From a virus: DNA of 29,114 nucleotides. The position numbers were made by a program, and so were the translations under genes. A model generated the notes under the pieces. It was not told where the DNA came from, did no database searches, and worked only from the letters and a program-made list of their open reading frames with translations. The stretch lies in the IMG/VR virus record IMGVR_UViG_3300030104_004495, positions 1 through 29,114 of that record; one strand, 5' to 3'. Below, piece by piece: positions 5,809 through 26,023 of the stretch (position 1 is the stretch's first letter; each line of letters begins with the position of its first letter).

Positions 5809-6544
5809 TTTCAACATACATATAGCTCAAGAGTTTGGAGTAGAGGAGGCGATCATGATCAAGAACTTTCAGTTTTGGATCTTGAAAAATAAAGCAAACA
5901 AAAAGCATGAGCACGAGGGTAAAACCTGGACTTATAACTCGGTTGTTTCTTTTGAGAGAGTTTTTCCTTTTTGGAGTAAATCTCAAATAGCCAGGATCCT
6001 GAAATCATTAGTCGAAAAAGAAGTTCTTATCGTTGGGAATTTTAACAAGTCAAAATATGATCGGACACGCTGGTATAGCTTTTCGGATATTCAAATGTTA
6101 GATACTGAAAAGTGGAAAACATTAAAAGAGAAAAAGGAAAACGCTAAATCGGAAAATGGAAAGGCTGAAATCGTGCAACCTATACCAAATACAAACACAA
6201 ATAATAAAACAACAAATCCTCTTTTTACTCAGCTGATCGCTGAGTATCATAACTGGATATTAGAAAAGGTAGGAGCTCCTCCAAAGATCAACGGAGCCGA
6301 GGGAAACGCTGCAAAGCAAATACTGGACTACTTATCTAAAATTACGGAGGATCCAATCGTGGCCTGGAAATTTATTTTACAGCACTTTGATAGGATCGAG
6401 CCTTTTCTACAAAAACAGATCAAGCTCGTTCAAATAAATTCAAATTTACTAAACATATTAAATCAGATTAAAAATGGAAAAAATACCAATCAACAAAGCT
6501 CTCAAGGCCTTGAAGCAAAGATCCGAGCAAGGAGGCAAGGATAA
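5798..6544 (+). CDS. Phage replication initiator (DnaD/replisome-organiser type)
   Basis: A 248-residue protein. The N-terminal ~105 residues form the winged-helix domain typical of phage O/DnaD-like replisome organisers: FGVEEAIMIKNFQFWILKNK, the aromatic core KTWTYNSVVSFERVFPFWSK, then QIARILKSLVEKEVLIVGNF (recognition helix) and the wing SKYDRTRWYSF. A Glu/Lys/Asn-rich linker (about 112-145) leads to a helical C-terminal domain (LIAEYHNWILEKVGAPPKIN; KQILDYLSKITEDP). Expected role: bind the phage origin and recruit the host helicase. Its last 71 bases overlap the next gene in another frame, an unusually long overlap. The origin may lie inside this gene; I saw no clear iterons. Confidence 0.8.
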   Translation: MEYSFNIHIAQEFGVEEAIMIKNFQFWILKNKANKKHEHEGKTWTYNSVVSFERVFPFWSKSQIARILKSLVEKEVLIVGNFNKSKYDRTRWYSFSDIQMLDTEKWKTLKEKKENAKSENGKAEIVQPIPNTNTNNKTTNPLFTQLIAEYHNWILEKVGAPPKINGAEGNAAKQILDYLSKITEDPIVAWKFILQHFDRIEPFLQKQIKLVQINSNLLNILNQIKNGKNTNQQSSQGLEAKIRARRQG

Positions 6545-7082
6545 CCTACCAGCTGAGATCAAACAAGAGGTTTTACCAGCCTTAAGCGTAAGTAATGAGC
6601 TGAGAGCTTTCAAGCAACAAGTTAATGGCTTAAATGAGGTTAAAATGGTTAACGAAATAATGAAAACGGAAAGATCATACCCCAGCTTGATCAAAAGATC
6701 AAGAGAGGATCACGCTCTCCTTATTGACGAAATTTGCTTACTTATTATTGATCTACAAAAATTTTATAATACAAAGGAGAAACTTTCGGAGGATCAGATC
6801 CTGGATCTTGCTGAGATAATTGTAGGCGAATATACTAACCTCACTATGCTGGATCTTGCTTTTTGTTTCAAACAAGGAAAAATCGGAGCTTATGGAAAAG
6901 TTTACGAGAGAATAGACGGAGGGGTTTTACTTGGCTGGATCAGGGAGTGGGATCAAAAAAGAATGAACATGATTATAGATCGGAGAGAGAGCGAGCATAT
7001 ACAGCAAAAGGCTGCGTGGGGTGGAGCTGCAAGATCAAGTGACGGAACTTTGAAACAATGGATCCAAAAAGGAAAGCTCTAA
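6474..7082 (+). CDS. Conserved replication-associated protein, helicase-loader partner candidate
   Basis: A 202-residue protein starting 71 bases before the end of the initiator. The C-terminal part (YTNLTMLDLAFCFKQGKIG, GKVYERIDGGVLLGWIREWD) matches a conserved helical domain often found downstream of replication initiators in Bacteroidota phages and mobile elements. No P-loop is seen, so it is not an AAA+ loader; it may be an initiator or loader accessory factor. The stop overlaps the following zinc-ribbon start (TAATG). Confidence 0.65.
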   Translation: MEKIPINKALKALKQRSEQGGKDNLPAEIKQEVLPALSVSNELRAFKQQVNGLNEVKMVNEIMKTERSYPSLIKRSREDHALLIDEICLLIIDLQKFYNTKEKLSEDQILDLAEIIVGEYTNLTMLDLAFCFKQGKIGAYGKVYERIDGGVLLGWIREWDQKRMNMIIDRRESEHIQQKAAWGGAARSSDGTLKQWIQKGKL

Positions 7083-7162
7083 TGTTTAAGTTTTGTAAAA
7101 AATGTGCTCAAATGGTGTGGATCCGAAACGGAAAGTGCTCGATTTGTAAAAATAAAATATAA
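7082..7162 (+). CDS. 26-residue zinc-ribbon miniprotein
   Basis: ATG overlaps the upstream stop in a TAATG junction and the 26-codon frame contains two CxxC knuckles (C5-C8 and C19-C22) separated by 10 residues with the aromatic/Arg stretch MVWIRNGK. That is the minimal geometry of a zinc ribbon. Coupled start, four Cys in 26 residues and no other gene in this gap support a real miniprotein. Possible role: nucleic-acid or polymerase-binding factor; unproven. Confidence 0.6.
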   Translation: MFKFCKKCAQMVWIRNGKCSICKNKI

Positions 7163-7181
7163 ATAAATAAAACAAACTACT

Positions 7182-7565
7182 ATGCTGAAAAATTTTGAAA
7201 AATTAACTAACGAATTAACGGAGCAAGAGCTCCAAACTTTTTTACCAATAGTCCTCGGAGGCTTAAGATCTAAGATCGGAAAATCAAACGCTGTTCCTGG
7301 ATCTCAAATAGTGAGAGGAGTAAACTCTTTTTTAGCTGATCGAGGGATCACTCTCAAGCTTTCAGGAGTTAGGCTCAGGAAGTTGATCAACCACATTAGA
7401 TCTAACGCTCTAATCGCTGGCCTTTGCAGCTCAGGTAAAGGATACTATGTAGCAAGCAATAAGCGAGAGCTGGAGGAGTGTATCGAAAGCCAAAAGCAAA
7501 GGATCAGGAGCCAGGAAAGAGTTGTGGAATGTTTGGAAAGACAATACTTAGATTTATACTTATAA
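7182..7565 (+). CDS. Winged-helix-like protein with C-terminal coil
   Basis: A 127-residue protein. Residues 10-95 (ELTEQELQTFLPIVLGGLRS, VPGSQIVRGVNSFLADRG, LSGVRLRKLINHIRSNALIA, then the wing SSGKGYYVASN) fit a winged helix; residues 96-125 form an amphipathic coil (ELEECIESQKQRIRSQERVV), suggesting dimerisation. Similar small proteins occur at the end of Bacteroidota phage replication operons, but I cannot give a name. Probable DNA-binding regulator. Leader contains AACAAACTA (7171-7179). It is the last gene before the hairpin at 7574. Confidence 0.6.
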   Translation: MLKNFEKLTNELTEQELQTFLPIVLGGLRSKIGKSNAVPGSQIVRGVNSFLADRGITLKLSGVRLRKLINHIRSNALIAGLCSSGKGYYVASNKRELEECIESQKQRIRSQERVVECLERQYLDLYL

Positions 7566-7679: not shown

Positions 7680-8201
7680 ATGGATCTAAAAGGTTATACA
7701 AAAAGGTATGACTTTTATCGATCCGTTGCGATTAAATTGTGTAAGAGTATAGAAATAGGAGAGGAGCTTGTTCAAGAGCTTTTCTTAATCTTGATCAAAA
7801 AGGATCAGGATCTCCTGGATCGACTACTTAAGGATCAGAAAGCTGAAGCGTATTGTATTAGAATAATGAAAACGCAGCTCTTTAGTAAGAATACTAAATT
7901 TTACAAGAGAGAGATCAGCTGGAAAAAAAACCGATCAACGGAGAGCGTAAAAGATCAGCCTGATGTTCGGAGATCGGAAAGCGATTTCCTGGATATGATC
8001 AACGCTGAAAAAGTTGATCTACTTATTAAAAGGCTACCCTATTTTGAGAGGGAAGTTTTTCGAGTTTATTACGAGGGTGGGATCTCTTTCACGAAATTTT
8101 CTGAGGAGAGTGGGATCTCCAGGAAAACCTTATACAATACGATCCAAAAAGTAAAAAAATATATAAAAGAAAACTACAAACATGAGCTTGATAGTAAGTA
8201 G
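7680..8201 (+). CDS. Sigma-70/ECF-like transcription regulator
   Basis: A 173-residue protein. The N-terminal helices (VAIKLCKSIEIGEELVQELF) resemble sigma region 2. The C-terminal ~50 residues are region-4-like: LPYFEREVFRVYYEGGISFT leading to the helix-turn-helix KFSEESGISRKTLYNTIQKV and a basic tail. The LPYFEREVF start is the usual LP..ER.V/F entry to region 4. It probably redirects RNA polymerase, or acts like ArpU/late activators, to switch on downstream genes; it has its own promoter and stands between the early and late halves. A shared late motif (ATACTATACTAATA) is a candidate target. It overlaps the next gene by 20 bases. Confidence 0.7.
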   Translation: MDLKGYTKRYDFYRSVAIKLCKSIEIGEELVQELFLILIKKDQDLLDRLLKDQKAEAYCIRIMKTQLFSKNTKFYKREISWKKNRSTESVKDQPDVRRSESDFLDMINAEKVDLLIKRLPYFEREVFRVYYEGGISFTKFSEESGISRKTLYNTIQKVKKYIKENYKHELDSK

Positions 8202-8607
8202 AGATCTACAAAAAGCCAGGATCAGTATTTGTGAAGCTTGCCCTCACTTTAGATCCAAAACGAGAACTTGTGGAAAGCCAGTAATCGGAGAGTGGATCGA
8301 AACAGCTTTCAAAGAAAGGAAAAAGCTTTGTGGTTGTTTTATGGACGCAAAAAGCCAGCTCAAGTTTGGATCTTGTCCTCTTGGAATGTGGGGCCCTACT
8401 GAAAAAGAAATCGAGGATCTCGCTGAAAAAGAAAACTTTGTAAAAAGCATGAGCCGAGCACAACGAGTAACTCAGAAAGATCTTGATCGAATTTACTCAA
8501 TATATAAAGAAGTAGTAGGCGATTCTAAAAAATCAAATTGTCCTCCATGTATTAAGGAGGATCTTAAAAAAATACTAATCAAAATAAAAGAAACAAAAAA
8601 TGACTAA
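8182..8607 (+). CDS. Cys-rich zinc-binding phage protein
   Basis: A 141-residue protein with a cysteine-rich N-terminal region: CEACPHF, TCGKPV, LCGCFM and SCPLGMW (Cys at about 17, 20, 30, 50, 52 and 65), compatible with one or two structural zinc sites. The C-terminal half is helical with a second CPPC motif near residue 120. This Cys pattern is common in Bacteroidota phage proteins encoded near DNA-modification or late regulators, function unknown. It overlaps the methyltransferase gene by 8 bases, so the two are translated together. Confidence 0.6.
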   Translation: MSLIVSRDLQKARISICEACPHFRSKTRTCGKPVIGEWIETAFKERKKLCGCFMDAKSQLKFGSCPLGMWGPTEKEIEDLAEKENFVKSMSRAQRVTQKDLDRIYSIYKEVVGDSKKSNCPPCIKEDLKKILIKIKETKND

Positions 8608-10048
8608 AAAAATTGACTTCGTAAAAGACATTAAGCTTGTTCCGATCGCTGATCTGAAAGAGGCTGATTATAACCCTCGTTTTATAACTGAGAAAAAGTT
8701 TGAGGATATAAAGAAAAGCTTACTTGAGTTTGGCTTCAGATTGCCGATCATAGTAAATACAAATGCTGATCGCAAAAATATAATTGTAGGAGGCCACCAA
8801 AGGATCAAAGTAGCAAAAGCTCTCGGTATCAAAGAGGCTCCTTGCACTTTTGTTGATCTACCTCTTGAAAAAGAAAGAGAGCTCAATATCAGATTAAACA
8901 AAAATACTGGAGAGTTTGACATGGATCGCCTGGCTAATCTTTTCGAGATCAACGATTTGATCGATTGGGGTTTTCAGCCTTATGAGTTCAGCCTGGATCT
9001 TAACGATACAGATAGCCTTGAGCCTTTGGATCTTGGAGCAAGCGAGGAACAAGCTGAGCTTTACGATCCTGATGTTAAGCTTACGGATCAATTTATCATA
9101 CCACCCTTTACTATTTTTGATACTCGACAAGGTTATTGGAGATCTCGTAAAAGAGCCTGGAAAGCTCTTGGTTTAGATAGTGGCCTCGGCCGAGAGGATA
9201 ACCTTTTGAATTACTCCGATAGTATAAGAAACGGAGGGTTTAAGATCGTAGATGTTGAGATCAAAAACTCAGGAACTTCGATCTTTGATCCAGTTCTTTG
9301 TGAGGTTATTTACAAATGGTTTAATGTAAAAGGAGGATCGATCTTTGATCCTTTCGCTGGAGGATCAGTAAGAGGTATTGTAGCTTCAAAGCTGGGCCAT
9401 GAATACACTGGTATAGATCTAAGGCCTGAGCAAATTGAGGAGAATGTAAAACAAGGAGCTGAGATCTTAGAAAAAGGAGATCCAAAAGTTGAGTGGATCC
9501 TTGGGAACGCTCTTGATACTGACAAGCATATAGGTAAGAAAAAGTTTGATCTGATGTTTTCTTGTCCTCCTTACTTTGATCTTGAGCAATACTCGGAGGA
9601 TCCTGAGGATCTCTCTAACTTAAAGTGGGAGGAGTTTACGGATCAATACAAAGAGATAATAAGTAAAGGCCTTAAAACCCTTAAAAATGATCGTTTCGCT
9701 TGTTTTATCGTTGGAGATATAAGGGAGCCGAAAAGTGGATACTATCGAGATCTGATTCGACTAACTATTGAAGCGTTTGAGAAAGGAGGAGCTCGCTTGT
9801 ATAACGAAATGATATTACTTGAGCCAGCTGGAACAGCAGCCATGAGAGCGAGTAGAATTTTCAAAGGAGGCCGAAAGGTATGTAAAACCCACCAAAACAT
9901 ATTAGTATTTTACAAAGGAGATCCTGGAAAGATCAAAGAGATCTACGGAGAGGAGGTTGAGGTTATGGAGATGAACGAGGATCCTGAAAATAAAAAAGTG
10001 GACGCTACTATTTATGGAGAGAAAATCAAACTTGACAAAATAATATGA
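8600..10048 (+). CDS. ParB-like domain fused to DNA (N4/N6) methyltransferase
   Basis: A 482-residue fusion. Residues 10-110 are a ParB/Srx-type domain (NPR at 25-27, GGHQR at 64-68, KNTGEFD at 101-107). Residues ~165-450 are a Rossmann methyltransferase: motif I FDPFAGGS (249-256) binds S-adenosylmethionine, motif IV SCPPYFDLEQY starts at 321, and VGDIR plus THQNILVFYKG close the fold. S-x-PPY resembles amino-methyltransferases of the N4-cytosine/N6-adenine type; the target base cannot be read from sequence. Motif I precedes IV. Known context: such ParB-MTase fusions accompany phage base-modification genes. Here it heads a translationally coupled four-gene cassette (ATGA overlap with the next gene). 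Confidence 0.88.
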   Translation: MTKKIDFVKDIKLVPIADLKEADYNPRFITEKKFEDIKKSLLEFGFRLPIIVNTNADRKNIIVGGHQRIKVAKALGIKEAPCTFVDLPLEKERELNIRLNKNTGEFDMDRLANLFEINDLIDWGFQPYEFSLDLNDTDSLEPLDLGASEEQAELYDPDVKLTDQFIIPPFTIFDTRQGYWRSRKRAWKALGLDSGLGREDNLLNYSDSIRNGGFKIVDVEIKNSGTSIFDPVLCEVIYKWFNVKGGSIFDPFAGGSVRGIVASKLGHEYTGIDLRPEQIEENVKQGAEILEKGDPKVEWILGNALDTDKHIGKKKFDLMFSCPPYFDLEQYSEDPEDLSNLKWEEFTDQYKEIISKGLKTLKNDRFACFIVGDIREPKSGYYRDLIRLTIEAFEKGGARLYNEMILLEPAGTAAMRASRIFKGGRKVCKTHQNILVFYKGDPGKIKEIYGEEVEVMEMNEDPENKKVDATIYGEKIKLDKII

Positions 10049-10665
10049 TCACGCTTGATCCATACATTAAAAAGTTCCGAGATCTTGAAACTGAAAAGCT
10101 TGGTAGGATCTTGATCCTGGATAACTTATCGCTTGATTGCTTAGGTGGAGAAAGGATCAAATACAAGAAAGAGATCCTCAAACTTTGGGATCAAAATAAG
10201 CTCGACAATTTTGCTCCGAGCTTAGATCATTACAATTACTCTCAGCTGAGAAATCTACCAAATATAAATAAGTCAGTAATAAATCATTTGTTAGGCCTGA
10301 AAGGATACGGAATGTGCCTAACCACATCACTTTGCTACTATTATTTAATGGGTAAAAAGGATCTTAATAACGAGGATCTAAAGATCAAAGCTTTCAAGCC
10401 AGGAAAAAGAAACCTCCACTATTGGATCGAAAGTGGATCAGGAGAGTGGATCGACTTAACCTCAGCTCAGCTCTACATGGTATTAAAAAATACTAAACAT
10501 GTTGATATGATCACACAGCCTCACTTAATGTATGAGCAAGGCCAAATAGTAAAAAGATTTAGATCTCAAACTGACGGATCTAAAAAAATAAAGATCGGAG
10601 AGGAGGAGATCAAGATCGGAGAAGTAGATTACAATTTTCTAATTAAAATAACTAAACAATTATAA
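10045..10665 (+). CDS. Transglutaminase/papain-like protein with Cys-His-Asp set
   Basis: A 206-residue protein with no assigned family. Residues 84-141 show the order expected of a transglutaminase-like/papain-fold enzyme: GYGMCLTTSLCYYYL with C91 at the start of a helix, LHYWIES with H125, and WIDLTSAQ with D137. The His-Trp-x-Glu and Trp-x-Asp context is typical of the two core strands carrying His and Asp. Such folds catalyse peptide cleavage or acyl transfer to amines. Between a DNA methyltransferase and an oxygenase it could attach or remove an amino-acid-like group on DNA; that role is inference. It starts inside the previous stop and ends 2 bases before the next gene. Confidence 0.55.
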   Translation: MITLDPYIKKFRDLETEKLGRILILDNLSLDCLGGERIKYKKEILKLWDQNKLDNFAPSLDHYNYSQLRNLPNINKSVINHLLGLKGYGMCLTTSLCYYYLMGKKDLNNEDLKIKAFKPGKRNLHYWIESGSGEWIDLTSAQLYMVLKNTKHVDMITQPHLMYEQGQIVKRFRSQTDGSKKIKIGEEEIKIGEVDYNFLIKITKQL

Positions 10666-10667
10666 CT

Positions 10668-11804
10668 ATGACTAATACAATGAAAGAGTGGCAAAATGGA
10701 TACGAGCTACCATACTTAAAACAATTAAGATCAATTTTCAAAACTGAATACAAACCCTATTGTTTCGGAGCCTTTGGGATCCCTAACGAGCGAGATCTTG
10801 CTACCTGGCTTAAAGACGATCAGGTAGTAATGACAGCTGAAAAGGATACTCTTTTGATATTCAAACAATACAATGCAAAAAGTAGTATCAAAGATTTTAC
10901 TGGATCCAGGATCTTAGTAGAAAGAGGAGATGTGGTTATCAAACATATAGCTGGAAAGCAAAAACAAAAAGTGTTTAACTACATAATGGATCAACTAAAA
11001 GGATACCGAGTATTAGTTCAAGTATTTGAGGAGCATGAGGAGCACATGAAATTGATCAAAGATCACAAGCTGAATTTTATTTCAACTAAGATCGCAGCTT
11101 CAAGTGATCTAATCGGTATATATGCAACAAAAGAAAACCACCCTTATAAGCTCGCAAAAGGAGAGGAGATCCATATCAAAAGCCTCGTTCCTAAATTTTT
11201 AACTAACTCTCAGCTGAAGCAAGTAAGAGAGGAGCTGGAAAGCTTTTCAAGCTGGGCCGATCATTACTCAGGATATAACAAAAGGCAAAGCTGGAGTGCC
11301 TTTGGTTTGAGAGGTTATGACAAAGATCCTAACTTCATAATTAAGCCAGGCGAAATGTCGCAAAAATGGAAAAGAGAAAACCCTGAGAAATTAGTAGCAA
11401 AATCTGATTGGACGGATATTATTGACAAGTTCCCATATACAAAAAGCTTGCTCGAAAAGTTCCCTCTCAAAGGATCAAAGCTTGATCGAGTTAGATTCAT
11501 GAGATTAAAGTCAGGAAAAGGAGAGCTCTCAAGGCACGCAGACATAACGGATCGAGAGGCTGGAGTTCAGCCAGGATCAGTAGTAAGATTACATATACCA
11601 ATAATTACAAACGATAAGGTAATTTTTCACAGCTGGAGCCACCGAGGAGATAAAAAGGCTTACAATATGAAAGAGGGATCTCTTACTTATCTTGATGTTA
11701 GGAAACCACATACAGCTACAAATACTGGAGATCAAGATCGGATCCACTTAGTAATAGATCTATACGCAAGCGAGGAACTTACTAAACATATAATCGAATG
11801 TTAG
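10668..11804 (+). CDS. GNAT-like plus AspH-type 2-oxoglutarate/Fe(II) oxygenase fusion
   Basis: A 378-residue two-domain protein. The C-terminal domain (about 175-370) matches the aspartyl/asparaginyl-hydroxylase double-stranded beta helix: iron ligands H290 and D292 in LSRHADI, distal H348 in RKPHTATN, and R358 in DRIHLVIDL for 2-oxoglutarate. HIPIITN and YNMKEGSLTYLD are the usual framing strands. The N-terminal ~155 residues (GDVVIKHIAG, a helix, GYRVLVQVFEEHEEHMKLIK, HKLNFISTKIA) resemble the second half of a GNAT acyltransferase fold, less certain. Probable activity: hydroxylation, perhaps with acyl transfer, on a modified base or a cofactor amine. Coupled to the PLP enzyme by a 7-base overlap. 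Confidence 0.75.
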   Translation: MTNTMKEWQNGYELPYLKQLRSIFKTEYKPYCFGAFGIPNERDLATWLKDDQVVMTAEKDTLLIFKQYNAKSSIKDFTGSRILVERGDVVIKHIAGKQKQKVFNYIMDQLKGYRVLVQVFEEHEEHMKLIKDHKLNFISTKIAASSDLIGIYATKENHPYKLAKGEEIHIKSLVPKFLTNSQLKQVREELESFSSWADHYSGYNKRQSWSAFGLRGYDKDPNFIIKPGEMSQKWKRENPEKLVAKSDWTDIIDKFPYTKSLLEKFPLKGSKLDRVRFMRLKSGKGELSRHADITDREAGVQPGSVVRLHIPIITNDKVIFHSWSHRGDKKAYNMKEGSLTYLDVRKPHTATNTGDQDRIHLVIDLYASEELTKHIIEC

Positions 11805-12514
11805 AGCCTATTTTCGAGCGATATAACGGAGTAACTGTATTAAGAGATGATCTACTACCTGGAGGATCTAAAAGCCGATTTTTACCCTATTTAATAAAAG
11901 GAGCAAAAGAAGTTGTTTTCGGTGGGCCTTTTTGTGGAGGAGCTCCTTTGTGCCTTGCTGTTTTAGGTAAAAGCTTAGGGATCAAGATCACGCTCTTTTA
12001 TGCAAAGCGAAAAGTATTACATCGAAATCAAAGAGTGGCCCTGGAACATGGAGCTACTATATACCAAGTTCCTTACGGATATATGACTAATGTTCAAAGC
12101 AAAGCCAGGAGATACGCTCAAGATCATGGAGCACTATTTCTACCCTTAGGTTTTGATGTTCCTCAAGCCTCGGATCCTTTTATCAATGACATGAAAGAGA
12201 TCAACAAAATGAAAGGCCCTTTTGATGAAGTGTGGGTAGCTTGTGGATCAGGTATGTTAGCTCGCTGTTTAGCTTATGGCTTTCCTGAAGCAAAGATCAA
12301 AGCTGTTGTGGTTGGACTTAATTCTCGAAACCAAAAGCAATCGTTCCCTGATAATGTTGAGTTAATAGATTGCAAGTATCGATTTGATCAAGATTGTAAA
12401 AGTAAACCACCATTTGTAAGCTCAGAAAATTATGACGCAAAAGCGTGGGAGGTTTTAATGGAAACAAAGAAAGGAGGGATCAACAATAACATACTATTTT
12501 GGAATGTGCTGTAA
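11798..12514 (+). CDS. TrpB-fold PLP-dependent enzyme (compact)
   Basis: A 238-residue member of the fold-type II PLP family (tryptophan synthase beta, ACC deaminase, D-cysteine desulfhydrase). VLRDDLLPGGSKSRFLPYL carries the Schiff-base lysine K25 in the family's GG-(S/N)-K-x-R setting; FGGPFCGGAPLCLA is the next core helix entry; ACGSGMLARCLA (148-159) is the phosphate-binding loop. At 238 residues it is about 70-100 shorter than the metabolic relatives, so its substrate site differs. It probably makes or adds an amino-acid-derived group. Co-translation with the oxygenase and methyltransferase suggests a biosynthetic step in DNA modification, not host catabolism. Confidence 0.75.
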   Translation: MLEPIFERYNGVTVLRDDLLPGGSKSRFLPYLIKGAKEVVFGGPFCGGAPLCLAVLGKSLGIKITLFYAKRKVLHRNQRVALEHGATIYQVPYGYMTNVQSKARRYAQDHGALFLPLGFDVPQASDPFINDMKEINKMKGPFDEVWVACGSGMLARCLAYGFPEAKIKAVVVGLNSRNQKQSFPDNVELIDCKYRFDQDCKSKPPFVSSENYDAKAWEVLMETKKGGINNNILFWNVL

Positions 12515-12546: not shown

Positions 12547-12942
12547 ATGGACGAAATCGAACACTATAAAAAAGAGCAAGAGCGAACAAGGATCCAAAAG
12601 GCCAAGATCCTGGAGGCCCTTGAGCAAACTCTCGGAGTTGTTACTCCAGCATGTAAAGCTGTCGGTATAAGTAGATCTACCTTTTATAAATGGAAAGAGG
12701 AGGATCCTAAATTCAGCGAGGAGGTAGGTAAGATCATAGGTTTAAGGCTGGACTTTTTGGAAAACGAAATGTTGAGGAGGATCCAAAATAACAGCCAGGG
12801 ATCTAACACTTTACTTATGTATGAGCTGAATAATCGAGGCCGAGAACGAGGGTATGGTAATGATCAAAAGATCGACATAACCTCAGCTGGAAAAGAGATC
12901 AAAGCTCCGAGCTGGGTTATACCAAAGGAAAAGCCTGAGTGA
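12547..12942 (+). CDS. terS: Terminase small subunit
   Basis: A 131-residue protein with a helix-turn-helix at about residues 19-51 (KILEALEQTLGVVTPACKAV, then GISRSTFYKWKEEDPKFSEE), the arrangement of phage TerS DNA-recognition domains such as the phBC6A51-type HTH. A helical oligomerisation region follows (LRLDFLENEMLRRIQNN) and a Pro/Lys-rich tail (SWVIPKEKPE). It recognises the packaging site and hands DNA to TerL, encoded 520 bases downstream. Preceded by the late motif at 12522. The 136-base gap after it holds an inverted-repeat element. Confidence 0.85.
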   Translation: MDEIEHYKKEQERTRIQKAKILEALEQTLGVVTPACKAVGISRSTFYKWKEEDPKFSEEVGKIIGLRLDFLENEMLRRIQNNSQGSNTLLMYELNNRGRERGYGNDQKIDITSAGKEIKAPSWVIPKEKPE

Positions 12943-21491: not shown

Positions 21492-23606
21492 ATGGCTAAA
21501 AAATATATAGTAGAGCTTGAGATTGACGGAGTAAAAGAGAGTGTTCAAAATATGGAGCAACTTGAAACTACTGTTGCCGATCTTGAGAATCAGTTAAAAC
21601 AAGCCGACTTCGGATCGGAGGAGTTCAAAAAATTAAGTGGAGAGCTGGGAAAAGCAAAAGGAGAACTTAACCAATTTCAAAGAGAGATTGACGCTCTTGA
21701 TCCAACAGCTAAGGCTGAGCAATTTGTAAAGTTTGCCGAGGGAATAAGTGGAGGTTTTGCAATCGCTACTGGAGCTATGGCTGTGTTCGGAGGCAAGAAC
21801 GAGGAGCTTGAGAAAACAATGGTTAAAGTTCAGGGAGCTATCGCAATCGCTGTGGGGATCCGACAAATAGCTGAAAGTAAGTTAATCGAAACGCTTTCTC
21901 GATCAGCTGTCGGACAAGGCTTGCTCTCAGCTGCAACAGCCACTTATACTTTTGTTACTGGAGCTGCAAGCACAGCACTTAAAGTATTCAGGCTTGCTCT
22001 TGTATCAACTGGGATCGGAGCAATAGTAGTAGCTGTTGGTATGCTTGTCGCTAATTTTGACAAGCTCTACGGAGCCTTAAAGTTCGTAGCTGAATTTATG
22101 ATCAACACAGTTGTCGGAGCTTTTAACCTTGTTATTGACGGAGTTAATTGGATCATAAAACAACTGAATAAAATACCAGGAGTAAGTATCGGAATGATCG
22201 ACAGCATGGAAAAGGTTTCGTTCGCTTCAAAAGAGGCAGCTGATACTACTCAACAATATGCTGACGAGCTGGATAAACTTAAGGCAGCACAAGAGGCTGC
22301 TACTCAAGCTGCTGACGATCACATGAAAGCCTTAAATCGAGAGCTTGCTCTTATGGAGGCAAGAGGAGAATCTGAGGCTGCAATCTTAGCCATGAAAAGA
22401 GAGATCCTGGAGGCTGCTGTAAATGAAGCTATCGCTACCGAGGTTGCTATTGAGCAACAGCTTGCACTTGCTCAGGCTGCTATGGAGGCGAACAAGGCTC
22501 TCCTGGCTCGAAAAGCTGAGGAGGAGGGCAAGAGTGTGGACGATGTATTGGCTGATCTTGGATTGGCTAATCCTAAAGAAATAGAAAAGGCCTTAAACGA
22601 TGCAAAAAACGCAAGGCTGGACGCTGAGAATAACCTCGCAGTATTTGAAGCTGAGATCAATACAAAAAGGAGAGAAACAAGAAATAAACAAAGAGAGGAG
22701 GAGGAGGCTGAGGAGCAAAAGAAAAAAGAGGAGGAGGCTGCAAAGCTTGAGGAGAAAAAACAGCAAATGCTGGACGAGGCTGAGCAACTCAAAGCTCTCC
22801 AGGACGAGCTCGCACTTATGGCTGTTGAGGACGCTTTTGAAAGATCAGCTCTTGAGCTTGAACAACAAATGGCTGCCGATCTTGCTCAGATCGAACAAGC
22901 TGAAAATTTTGAGGAACAAAAACTCTTGATCGAGGAGAAGTATAAAAAATTAAGTGAGGATCTACAAGCTGAGCACATAAAATTCAAAGAGGATAAACAA
23001 AAAGAGGCCGATCAGGAGGCTCTTGATACAGCTGTTGCTGTTGAGGAGGCGAAACAACAAATCGCTCAGGACGGACTTAATGCTCTTAGTAGCTTGGTTG
23101 ATCTAATTGGAGGAGAGGGAAAGAGAGCAAAGAATATACAAAAGGCGATCGCAATCGCTCAAATAGCAATCGATACAGCCAAGGCTATAAGTTCAGCAAT
23201 CGCTGGAGCTACAGCTGCTGCTGCTGCTACTGGGCCAGCTGCTCCTTTTACAATGGTAGCTTACATCGCTTCAGGAATTGCAACAGTTCTCGCAAATGTA
23301 GTAACAGCACGAAATATATTGAAAGAGGCTGACAGCGTTGAGATCCCTGGAGGTGGATCCGAGGGTGGAGGAGGAGGAGGATCAGGCCCAGCTCCAACAG
23401 CTCAGGCTCAAGGATCAGCTCCTGATCCAGGAAGTGGTTTACAAAATATGCTACAAGGTGGAGGTATAGATTTTAGCTTTTTAGCTAATGGAGATACCTC
23501 TCAAATTGGAGGAGCTGTTCCTCCAGTTCAGGCTTATGTATTAGAAAGTGATGTAACCACAAGCCAGGAGGCTGTTCAAAGGATCGAGGATCAAGCAACT
23601 ATATAA
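21492..23606 (+). CDS. Tape measure protein
   Basis: A 704-residue protein. N-terminal coiled coil (MEQLETTVADLENQLKQADF), a long hydrophobic Ala/Gly/Val stretch (GFAIATGAMAVFGG at ~75-88 and LALVSTGIGAIVVAVGMLVA near 168-187), a central ~250-residue alpha-helical coil rich in Glu/Lys/Ala, a second hydrophobic region (AGATAAAAATGPAAPFTMVA at ~575-595) and a Gly-rich linker. This is the classic tape-measure pattern that sets tail length; at ~0.15 nm per residue it predicts a tail of about 105 nm. A 10-bp tandem repeat (ACGCTTAAAA twice) sits directly upstream of the start. Confidence 0.85.
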   Translation: MAKKYIVELEIDGVKESVQNMEQLETTVADLENQLKQADFGSEEFKKLSGELGKAKGELNQFQREIDALDPTAKAEQFVKFAEGISGGFAIATGAMAVFGGKNEELEKTMVKVQGAIAIAVGIRQIAESKLIETLSRSAVGQGLLSAATATYTFVTGAASTALKVFRLALVSTGIGAIVVAVGMLVANFDKLYGALKFVAEFMINTVVGAFNLVIDGVNWIIKQLNKIPGVSIGMIDSMEKVSFASKEAADTTQQYADELDKLKAAQEAATQAADDHMKALNRELALMEARGESEAAILAMKREILEAAVNEAIATEVAIEQQLALAQAAMEANKALLARKAEEEGKSVDDVLADLGLANPKEIEKALNDAKNARLDAENNLAVFEAEINTKRRETRNKQREEEEAEEQKKKEEEAAKLEEKKQQMLDEAEQLKALQDELALMAVEDAFERSALELEQQMAADLAQIEQAENFEEQKLLIEEKYKKLSEDLQAEHIKFKEDKQKEADQEALDTAVAVEEAKQQIAQDGLNALSSLVDLIGGEGKRAKNIQKAIAIAQIAIDTAKAISSAIAGATAAAAATGPAAPFTMVAYIASGIATVLANVVTARNILKEADSVEIPGGGSEGGGGGGSGPAPTAQAQGSAPDPGSGLQNMLQGGGIDFSFLANGDTSQIGGAVPPVQAYVLESDVTTSQEAVQRIEDQATI

Positions 23607-23636
23607 AATGAGTAATAACTATAAATTAAAATAATC

Positions 23637-24269
23637 ATGAATACAGAAATCGTAGAGTTAATTATTGACGAGGAGGAGATCGAGTTCGGAGTAGACGCTA
23701 TCAGCTTAGTAGGCGAGCCAGCGATACAAGAGAACTTTCTTGCTTTTCAAAATGATAAGAAAAACAATTACACTTTTGCTGTTGCTGATAGGGATCGTAG
23801 GATCTTGATCGGCCCAGCTTTAATACCGAACAAACAAATCTATCGTTATGATCGAAAAAGTGGTAAAGAGTATTATGTATGGTTTTCAAAGGAAACTGTT
23901 AGGCAAGCTTCACAGCTTTTTCTAATGAGAGATAAACACCATAATCATACCCTTGAGCACAAGGAGGAGATCTCAAACCTTTCAGTAGTTGAAAGCTGGA
24001 TCAAAGATAGTCCGATCGATAAAAGCGAGGCCTTTGGTTTCAAAGTTCCAGTAGGAACATGGCTTGTTGCGATCAAAGTAAATGACGAAAAGATTTGGAA
24101 AGAGCAAGTAAAAGAGGGTAAGGTAAAAGGGTTTTCAATCGAAGGTTTTTTCACTAATAAAATGGAATACCGAAAGAAAAAGAAAAAGAAAAAGAGAGGT
24201 AAGATCACAAGAAAATACTCGGAGCAAGAGCTTTGTGAGGAGATCAAAAAGATCATACGAGAAAAATAA
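23637..24269 (+). CDS. XkdF-like prohead protease
   Basis: A 210-residue protein. RRILIGPALIPNKQIYRYD (55-72), EYYVWFSKETVRQASQLFL, HTLEHKEE with candidate catalytic H108, SVVESWIKDS, and VKGFSIEGFF with candidate nucleophile S167 match the XkdF/S78-type prohead protease family. It trims scaffold and capsid during maturation. The C-terminus has an unusual Lys run (RKKKKKKKRG) and the charged helix SEQELCEEIKKIIREK. In most phages this gene is next to the portal and capsid; here the capsid follows, but only after a 241-base gap with element B. Confidence 0.8.
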   Translation: MNTEIVELIIDEEEIEFGVDAISLVGEPAIQENFLAFQNDKKNNYTFAVADRDRRILIGPALIPNKQIYRYDRKSGKEYYVWFSKETVRQASQLFLMRDKHHNHTLEHKEEISNLSVVESWIKDSPIDKSEAFGFKVPVGTWLVAIKVNDEKIWKEQVKEGKVKGFSIEGFFTNKMEYRKKKKKKKRGKITRKYSEQELCEEIKKIIREK

Positions 24270-24293
24270 ATCGTTGAAAGTTTGGTTATTTGT

Positions 24294-24407
24294 AAAACCT
24301 TTTTGAGGCCATTTTAACAAGTTCTAAGAGGTTTTGGTATACTTTTGGATAAGATATATCAACCTACCTACGAACGACTAAACGCCTGACAGACAATGTA
24401 TTATAAG
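24294..24407 (+). ncRNA. Inverted element copy B, candidate structured RNA or DNA site
   Basis: Homologous to the complement of 12951-13063. AAAACCTTT (24294-24302) pairs with AGAGGTTTT (24327-24335) over 9 bp with one U-G wobble; the loop is 24 bases. Downstream conserved blocks are CTTTTGG, ATCAAC, GAAC, CCTGA, CAATGT and TTAxAAG. GGGT/ATCC then a T6 run (24424-24429) follow and may end an RNA. It also contains TATACTTTTG, a possible -7 box, so a promoter role for the capsid block is the alternative. The remaining bases to 24510 are AT-rich with no gene. Confidence 0.5.
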
Positions 24408-24456
24408 TGGGTATTTTAGATCCTTTTTTGAGCAAAAGGGAACGAGTGAATAAAAG

Positions 24457-24470
24457 TTATACTATATATA
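24457..24470 (+). promoter_or_regulatory. Late regulatory motif, degenerate copy upstream of the capsid block
   Basis: TTATACTATATATA, sharing TATACTATA with the two perfect copies at 12522 and 14647, 41 bases before the scaffold-like gene. Weak on its own; supported only by the same position before a structural gene block. Confidence 0.35.
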
Positions 24471-24510
24471 TAGAAAGTAAAATCTAATTTTAACAAAAAA
24501 ATTTTATCAA

Positions 24511-25047
24511 ATGAGTAAAAGTAAATTATCAAAAATCAAGGCACTACTTGGAATGCACGAGGACATTACTCTTGCAGCTGAGGCTGTGCTTAAAGACGGA
24601 ACAATGATCGGCACAGACGCTGAGGAATGGGCTGTCGGAGTATTAGCTTATGTAGTCGCTGAGACTGGCGAGAAAATGCCTTTACCAACTGGCGAGTTCG
24701 AACTTGAAGACGGACGAGTTTTAGTTATTGAAGACGGAACAATTACTGAGATCCGAGAGGCTGAAGTAGTTGAGGAGGAAGTAGTTGAGGAAGTAACTGA
24801 GGAGGTTGAAGCTGGAGTATCTAAAAAGGAGCTAATCGCTGTATTGGAGCAAATGAACAAGGACTTTGACGCTAAGCTTGAAGCTTTAGGAAAAGAGATC
24901 AAAAAAGATCTTACAAAGTTTTCAGCTTCAAAGCCGATAACTAAAATGTCTAATCGACCACAAAGAGTTATCGTTCAAAAAGATATTAAAGAAATGAATA
25001 CAGCTGAGAGAGCTCTTTCAATTTTTAATAATTCAATCAATAACTAA
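24511..25047 (+). CDS. Scaffold-like head assembly protein
   Basis: A 178-residue acidic protein between protease and major capsid, the usual place for a scaffold. It has a small beta domain (DITLAAEAVLKDGTMIGTDA; EFELEDGRVLVIEDGTITEI), a run of Glu/Val (VVEEEVVEEVTEEVEA), a coiled coil (KKELIAVLEQMNKDFDAKLE, EALGKEIKKD) and a basic tail, a layout typical of phage scaffolds that are cut by the prohead protease. The A-rich leader gives no Shine-Dalgarno site. Confidence 0.65.
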   Translation: MSKSKLSKIKALLGMHEDITLAAEAVLKDGTMIGTDAEEWAVGVLAYVVAETGEKMPLPTGEFELEDGRVLVIEDGTITEIREAEVVEEEVVEEVTEEVEAGVSKKELIAVLEQMNKDFDAKLEALGKEIKKDLTKFSASKPITKMSNRPQRVIVQKDIKEMNTAERALSIFNNSINN

Positions 25048-25066
25048 AATTAAAAAAAAAAAGAAA

Positions 25067-26023
25067 ATGAGAAAAAAATATAATTTAGCTGCTCAACCTT
25101 CTATAACTACTACTTATAGTGGAGAGTTAGCACAAGCGTATATCTCAGCTGCTTTACTTAGTGGTAAAACATTAAGCGAGGGATTGATTGAGATTAAAGA
25201 AAATGTAAAATACAAAGGCGTTTTGAAAACAGTTGCAACAGCTGACTTAATTCAAAAAGCTGATTGTGATTTCAAAAAAGGAGGAGAGGTAAATCTTAAT
25301 GAGAGAGTTATCGTTCCTGAGAATTTAATGGTAAACCTTGAGCTTTGTAAGCAACCATTTAGACAAGATTGGGAGGCTTTACAAACTGGATCATACAGAG
25401 TTGACGCTCAGATCCCACCAAACTTTGAAAGCTGGTTACTATTACATGTTGCTGGAAAGATCGCAGAAAATACTGAGTTAAATATCTGGCAAGGTGACAA
25501 AACTGGAGCTGGAACTTATCAAAGTTTTGACGGACTTTACACTATTTCTCAGGGAGCTGGTTTTGTTCCAGCTGCTCAGAATATAGCTGACGCTACTGAC
25601 AATCCACTTGATGTAGCTGATGTTATTAAGTGTTTAGAGAAAGTAAAAGCTGCTTTACCAGCTCAGCTATTGTTCCACCCTGATCTAAGGTTATATGTAT
25701 CTCCAGGGATCGCTTCAGCTTACATACATGCTTTAGGAGCGAACAACTATCAATATCAAGCGTTCGTAGGTGTTAAGCCTTTGAACTACGATGGTATTCA
25801 AATGGAGATCGCTAACGGAATGGAGGCTAAGTCAATGATGTGCACTTTGAAAACTAACTTGTTCTTTGGGACAAATTTAGTCGATGATATGAATGAGGCG
25901 AAAGTTTTAGACATGGCTAACCTTGACGGATCAGACAATGTGAGAGTAATTTACAGATTTACTGGAGGTTGTCAAATAGCGATCGGAGACGATGTTGTTG
26001 CTTATAAATCAACAGCTTCATAA
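25067..26023 (+). CDS. Major capsid protein
   Basis: A 318-residue protein, right size for an HK97-fold capsid subunit without a long delta domain. It begins MRKKYNLAAQPSITTTYSG and has the beta-rich core and a helix DVADVIKCLEKVKAALPAQL reminiscent of the HK97 spine region, then LFHPDLRLYVSPGIASAYIH, NLFFGTNLVDDMNEAKVLDM and IYRFTGGCQIAIGDDVVAYK, the usual late strands of Bacteroidota phage capsid proteins. Position (protease, scaffold, this gene, tail tube) fits. Its leader is a poly-A run. Confidence 0.75.
   Translation: MRKKYNLAAQPSITTTYSGELAQAYISAALLSGKTLSEGLIEIKENVKYKGVLKTVATADLIQKADCDFKKGGEVNLNERVIVPENLMVNLELCKQPFRQDWEALQTGSYRVDAQIPPNFESWLLLHVAGKIAENTELNIWQGDKTGAGTYQSFDGLYTISQGAGFVPAAQNIADATDNPLDVADVIKCLEKVKAALPAQLLFHPDLRLYVSPGIASAYIHALGANNYQYQAFVGVKPLNYDGIQMEIANGMEAKSMMCTLKTNLFFGTNLVDDMNEAKVLDMANLDGSDNVRVIYRFTGGCQIAIGDDVVAYKSTAS

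Follow-up and report, generated by a model that had tools for sequence, protein, structure and literature searches.

Gene content of the cassette

The window analyzed here is a stretch of 29,114 bases from the IMG/VR virus record IMGVR_UViG_3300030104_004495. Immediately upstream of its terminase genes it carries a cassette of four open reading frames (ORFs), encoding a ParB-fused N6/N4-type DNA methyltransferase homologue (MT), a Cys-His-Asp protein, a GNAT-like/AspH-family oxygenase (OX) and a compact pyridoxal phosphate enzyme (PLP). In agreement with the initial annotation, which was made from the sequence alone, the four ORFs are tightly packed on one strand, with a 4-nucleotide overlap at 10045, a 2-nucleotide gap at 10668 and a 7-nucleotide overlap at 11798 (Table 1). 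MT matches the Pfam families ParB_N (7.2e-7) and N6_N4_Mtase (1.6e-10), as expected for a DNA-modifying enzyme, and carries the FDPFAGG and SCPPY motifs previously assigned to it; the cores of motif I and motif IV are invariant in the alignment.

Table 1. Positions of the cassette genes, their motifs and the adjoining terminase gene in the window.
Feature	Position	Strand	Remarks
MT, ParB-fused N6/N4-type DNA methyltransferase homologue, G255/R258 form	8600..10048	+	phrog_498 3.3e-119
MT motif I, DPFAGGSVRG (D250-G259)	9347..9376	+	G255 and R258 separate the G/R form from the D/F form
MT motif IV, SCPPY	9560..9574	+	Cys replaces the usual D/N/S; CPPY 100% in both MT forms
Cys-His-Asp protein (C91, H125, D137), perhaps transglutaminase-like; accessory	10045..10665	+	No family match
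OX, GNAT-like N-terminus (~residues 14-153) and AspH-family Fe(II)/2-oxoglutarate oxygenase (~168-378)	10668..11804	+	Asp_Arg_Hydrox 5e-17
OX HxD iron-binding motif (H290, D292)	11535..11543	+	Partners H348 (11709-11711) and R358 (11739-11741)
PLP, compact fold-type II enzyme, PALP family, 238 aa	11798..12514	+	PALP 1.1e-8; phrog_7093 2e-32
Terminase small subunit	12547..12942	+	phrog_4044 8e-12; adjoins the cassette downstream; context only

In OX, the Asp_Arg_Hydrox match covers residues 183-366, and the iron and 2-oxoglutarate ligands proposed earlier were recovered in an alignment of 47 proteins, where D292, H348 and R358 are invariant and H290 is conserved in at least 90%. The AlphaFold2 model of OX (pLDDT 95.9) has as its closest solved fold 4p7w, an L-proline cis-4-hydroxylase (Z 16.3), followed by AspH (Z ~16), a beta-hydroxylase from a nucleoside-antibiotic pathway and proline 3-hydroxylase. 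OX differs from L-proline cis-4-hydroxylase and AspH, the enzymes nearest to its oxygenase domain in fold, by having an extra GNAT-like domain and by its phage DNA-modification context. For the N-terminal domain, the succession of helices and strands in the model supports the GNAT-like assignment; a fold search with the whole model gave no GNAT chains among the matches listed, a list filled by the oxygenase domain. The sole full-length, high-scoring viral structure match was gp4 of Mycobacterium phage LilMcDreamy (TM 0.82). A scan for OX seeded with the window sequence alone gave no matches, and a profile seed was needed.

PLP scores 35.2 bits against the Pfam PALP profile, just over the cut-off of 35. 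The Schiff-base lysine named in the initial annotation, K25, and a phosphate-loop-like GSG at residues 150-152 are all invariant in 18 proteins, including two copies embedded in MT. PLP shares the PALP family and the label of phrog_7093 ('threonine dehydratase') with fold-type II enzymes such as ACC deaminase and threonine dehydratase, but is shorter and is encoded by phages beside or inside MT. In Mycobacterium phage Vincenzo, gp2 adjoins the MT of this phage and is annotated as a 'carboxylate deaminase'. A search of solved structures with the PLP profile returned weak matches mixed with unrelated L21 matches and was not used.

For the Cys-His-Asp protein, searches of Pfam, PHROG and NCBIfam gave no match, and the structure model (pLDDT 44) was uninformative for its fold. 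Relatives of the gene were identified on only two other IMG/VR contigs, L001 and L002 (L numbers denote IMG/VR loci), in which the gene order is MT, OX, Cys-His-Asp gene, PLP. The three residues proposed earlier, C91, H125 and D137, are indeed invariant, but in three sequences only, two of which are near-identical. Because relatives of this gene are confined to two other contigs, the four genes could not be maintained as one unit. A different Cys-His-Asp protein, with a weak YunG match (0.016), is encoded between OX and PLP in L182 (6050-6520), L185 (6040-6504) and L186 (6050-6520); the profiles of the window protein and of the protein in this slot (L182, L185-L188) align these three residues, at a probability of 5%.

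MT, OX and PLP form a recurrent core

In order to survey related loci, IMG/VR was scanned with profiles of MT, OX, PLP and the MT linked to the decarboxylase SpeD (see below), which yielded 80 loci each. Loci sharing 60-residue stretches of core proteins were merged, giving 54 non-redundant OX groups. Of these, 33 contain MT, OX and PLP, two contain the Cys-His-Asp gene as well, eight contain MT and OX, six OX and PLP, and five OX alone; since the scans were seeded from members of the cassette, these fractions lean towards it. Relatives of OX are thus not found mainly away from DNA-modification genes, as 49 of the 54 contexts hold relatives of PLP, of the MT profile or of both. As the ParB domain is part of the MT profile, a match can be limited to it; the one in L179 covers the ParB part only, adjoining a gene of the predicted amino acid:DNA transferase (ADDT) type. 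The five remaining contexts include two with TET-like and ADDT genes and one with a TET gene. In the PLP-seeded scan, with 26 loci, the order MT, OX, PLP was observed in at least 14. Of 61 distinct PLP proteins, 55 have an MT within 3 kb or within the same ORF. On the MT tree, 22 label changes are needed for PLP and 14 for OX. The putative tailoring enzymes are accordingly conserved alongside MT across phages, and the core consists of MT, OX and PLP, with MT and PLP, with or without OX, as the recurrent unit.

The enzymes were also found fused. The MT of Erythrobacter phages R6L and ZS04 contains PLP as an insertion that separates a stretch aligned to window residues up to 285 from the SCPPY-bearing stretch, and in the Pseudanabaena phage Pam4, as read from the sequence, an inserted PLP likewise separates motif I of MT from motif IV. 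No OX relatives were detected by tblastn in these three phages. Fusions of MT with OX are present in L095, L167 and L171. Both kinds of fusion argue that the enzymes act on one substrate.

Several loci depart from the common arrangement. In L118-L120 and L159, MT and OX occur without a detected PLP or ADDT gene, either of which might bear on an amino-acid arm, in the locus, leaving no evident source of such an arm there other than MT. Directly 3' of OX, loci L118 (1841-2464), L119 (5603-6226), L120 (6120-6746) and L180 (6166-6780) encode another methylase-like protein of the N6/N4 type, which carries an SLPD motif, and no PLP was detected within any of these four loci. L156 carries an expanded cassette, with two extra 2-oxoglutarate/iron oxygenases (2OG-FeII_Oxy_5) between OX and PLP (6134-7223). 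In L143 (6161-7623), genes for a C5-cytosine methylase-like and a weakly matching PAPS-reductase-like protein lie directly 3' of MT and OX, and a PAPS-reductase gene is found near the MT-PLP gene of Erythrobacter phage R6L.

Two forms of MT differ in motif I and in gene neighbors

MT relatives fall into two forms, which differ within motif I and share motif IV. In the form found in the window, G255 and R258 are each present in 146 of 146 rows of the motif count, while the other form has Asp (59 of 59 rows) and Phe (58 of 59 rows) at these positions and makes up a single, SpeD-linked clade. CPPY was kept by all MT relatives scored. In 2zie, a solved DNA methylase, a Thr is aligned with R258. 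A gene for SpeD, an S-adenosylmethionine (SAM) decarboxylase, lies within 4 kb in 55 of the 59 rows of the D clade, and PLP or OX in none. Among genes with enough flanking sequence in two MT-seeded scans, SpeD was observed within 1.5 kb of 42 of 46 D-form genes versus 0 of 70 G-form genes, and PLP or OX near 13 of 70 G-form versus 0 of 46 D-form genes, contrasts for which Fisher p-values ignore common descent. SpeD and PLP never occur together among 206 MT rows. The Ser, His and Cys positions of the pyruvoyl enzyme (residues from PMC10407285) are kept in 55 of 55 scored SpeDs. Loci L034 (7359-9204) and L036 (6359-8000), together with those of the SpeD-linked MT scan, hold members of this sister clade, with motif I in the form D[CT]FAGD and a SAM decarboxylase nearly always adjacent. 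Spermidine synthases, which use decarboxylated SAM as substrate, have an Asp in the matching glycine-rich loop. The sister clade is likely to be an aminopropyl-DNA system of its own.

OX is shared with predicted amino acid:DNA transferase loci

Members of the OX family serve in DNA-modification loci of two kinds, and attachment of amino acids is predicted for one of these. In LilMcDreamy, gp3 matches ADDT (2.7e-12) and gp2 matches Tet_JBP weakly. L189 shows the same arrangement, with ADDT (3.4e-11) and Tet_JBP (7.3e-5) matches beside OX, and L030 also holds OX with both TET-like and ADDT genes. In addition, OX is accompanied by a Tet_JBP gene (1e-9) in L184 and by an ADDT domain (8e-14) in L179. 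It is mainly on account of this distribution that we propose a base-linked amino acid as the target of hydroxylation by OX. Proteins in L030 (855-1787) and L189 (2-937) are labelled queuine tRNA-ribosyltransferase (phrog_6059) and instead match Tet_JBP weakly (0.0022 and 7.3e-5, respectively); the label may be wrong.

Proposed chemistry and alternatives

The context supports the initial annotation well in its proposal of a DNA hypermodification cassette, and we consider it highly likely that the cassette is a phage DNA hypermodification system in general. It very probably decorates the DNA of the virus itself with a modified amino-acid-like group. The chemistry suggested here builds on what is observed directly, namely the genes, their conserved linkage, the fusions, the likeness of OX to amino-acid hydroxylases and the association of motif I with SpeD. 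From its context and the motif I switch, MT may be a SAM:DNA aminocarboxypropyltransferase, which would move the 3-amino-3-carboxypropyl arm of SAM onto a base of the phage DNA, instead of or besides the methyl group, and so yield a base-linked alpha-amino acid. OX would then hydroxylate this amino acid, most likely at the beta carbon, a step with partial support, and PLP would act on the same alpha-amino acid by deamination, elimination or beta-replacement. As an optional extra, the Cys-His-Asp protein would add a tailoring step, and the modification would presumably shield the phage DNA from host nucleases. In the sister clade, SpeD of the phage would supply decarboxylated SAM, from which an aminopropyl group would be transferred. 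If one clade transfers the arm of decarboxylated SAM, the shared CPPY and the invariant Arg suggest that its sister may transfer the full arm of SAM. An arm without a carboxylate in the SpeD clade would also account for the absence of OX and PLP beside SpeD. The complete sequence of arm transfer by MT followed by tailoring by OX and PLP is a tentative assignment that falls somewhat short of even odds. To the wider reading, that phages write an alpha-amino acid on a DNA base via the SAM arm, that an AspH-type oxygenase and PLP remodel it, and that a sister clade does so with decarboxylated SAM, we assign a probability of roughly 0.4.

Several points weigh against this reading. In sequence, MT matches DNA methyltransferases, and of 69 MT-scan relatives with sufficient flanking sequence, 56 have neither PLP nor OX nearby, as plain methylases might; MT may simply methylate. 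The interpretation of D255 and R258 leans on the comparison with spermidine synthases. For the SpeDs of the D clade, SAM is a putative substrate, and the scan for the clade was itself seeded with the D motif. Since the D clade is one lineage, its link to SpeD represents one evolutionary event kept many times. Phage SpeDs can also be ornithine or arginine decarboxylases (PMC10407285). The Tet_JBP matches in L030 and L189 do not reach the Pfam cut-off, the PALP assignment of PLP barely exceeds its own, and ADDT has a predicted function. Because PLP occurs without OX, OX is not a prerequisite for it. The substrate of PLP could also be SAM, ahead of the transfer, rather than a DNA-linked amino acid.

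Such an order, in which PLP remakes SAM or another amino acid into a donor, MT transfers it to DNA and OX trims the product, would fit the position of PLP inside MT in R6L, ZS04 and Pam4, where tblastn detected no OX relatives. It would also fit the mutual exclusion of SpeD and PLP, as both would fill one SAM-remaking slot. A different donor is, however, not suggested by motif I, since PLP-linked and MT-only enzymes share G255 and R258, and we know of no fold-type II PLP enzyme with SAM as substrate; we regard this order as unlikely. The initial annotation had instead assumed that MT marks a base, that the oxygenase or acyltransferase activates it and that PLP supplies an amino-acid-derived group. 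Spelled out, MT would methylate the base, OX would hydroxylate the methyl group, and the GNAT-like domain or the Cys-His-Asp protein might link the group from PLP to it. MT is a recognizable DNA methyltransferase homologue, and hydroxymethyl groups are known handles in phages (PMC12783734). This logic is nevertheless doubtful as stated and distinctly unlikely, because OX is closer to amino-acid hydroxylases than to methyl oxidizers such as TET or AlkB, occurs with predicted amino acid:DNA transferases and is an additional gene wherever TET-like genes occur, because PLP is paired with MT without OX, even inside MT, because the Cys-His-Asp gene is rare, and because the SpeD-tied sister clade is left unexplained. 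The likeness of OX, the PLP-MT pairs and the SpeD-tied clade together point to a SAM-derived amino-acid arm that is attached by MT and then tailored, with putative acceptor and chemistry.

That the majority of MT genes lack OX and PLP would also agree with an MT that only methylates, sharing an operon with an independent OX-PLP pair that acts on free amino acids or proteins. The insertion of PLP in MT, the MT-OX fusions and the repeated co-association on the MT tree make this improbable, as does a scan of bacterial and archaeal genomes, in which 27 pattern matches to OX included no true relatives. Least probable, and quite remote in our view, is that the cassette targets RNA or protein: AspH acts on protein side chains and GNAT domains often act on proteins, yet MT combines a ParB fusion with DNA methyltransferase homology, and OX adjoins TET-like and ADDT genes.

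Relation to known systems

The nearest characterized system is CmoA/CmoX/CmoY, which produces 5-glycylcarboxymethylcytosine in Synechococcus phage S-B43 and is a precedent for a SAM-derived handle on phage DNA (PMC12783734). As would be the case in the cassette, a methyltransferase homologue places a SAM-derived group on the phage DNA; in the Cmo system this reactive group is subsequently coupled to an amino acid. CmoX, a C5-cytosine methyltransferase type of enzyme, has an SPPC motif and takes carboxy-SAM, and CmoY is an ATP ligase, whereas the MT of the window is of the N6/N4 type and carries CPPY, and a ligase is replaced by OX and PLP. A role for MT as a CmoX-type carboxymethyltransferase was considered and rejected, as SCPPY occurs here in an N6/N4-type enzyme, rather than SPPC in a C5-methyltransferase with an Arg binding carboxy-SAM. 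The TET/JBP and ADDT loci of phages such as LilMcDreamy have the same OX family directly adjacent; in the cassette, no TET-like or ADDT gene was recognized, and MT and PLP take their place. The MT-SpeD pairs of Croceibacter phage P2559S and Pseudomonas phage ZRG1 share the ParB-MT family and CPPY with the cassette, but have the D/F form of motif I, and SpeD instead of PLP and OX.

In the literature collection that was searched, no paper describing the MT-OX-PLP cassette or its product was found. An abstract by Iyer et al. from 2013 is said to predict phage bases made from modified SAM derivatives, and part of the idea may be present there. If correct, the proposed chemistry would be another route of hypermodification besides those via hydroxymethyl and, with CmoX, carboxymethyl handles, would hint at what the SAM decarboxylases adjoining this MT family do, and would make enzymes available for writing amino acids on DNA. 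Related cassettes are present in cultured phages, so that it is directly testable: MT occurs with PLP in Erythrobacter phages R6L and ZS04, Pseudanabaena phage Pam4, Microcystis phage Mae-JY30 and Mycobacterium phage Vincenzo, alone in Enterococcus phage phiFL3A and Listeria phage B054, and with SpeD in P2559S and ZRG1.

Neighboring genes in the window

A DNA search revealed no near-identical cassettes in named phages. Upstream of MT, the gene for a cysteine-rich protein of 141 residues (8182-8607; phrog_13558, unknown function) shares its last 8 bases with the start of MT and may be a further member of the operon. A sigma-factor-like protein (7680-8201; phrog_1740, 2.3e-9) is encoded directly 5' of the cassette. 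Gene order is unusual in the region 21492-26023, where protease- and virion-protein-like genes (23637-26023) follow a tape-measure-like gene (21492-23606) that lies upstream of them.

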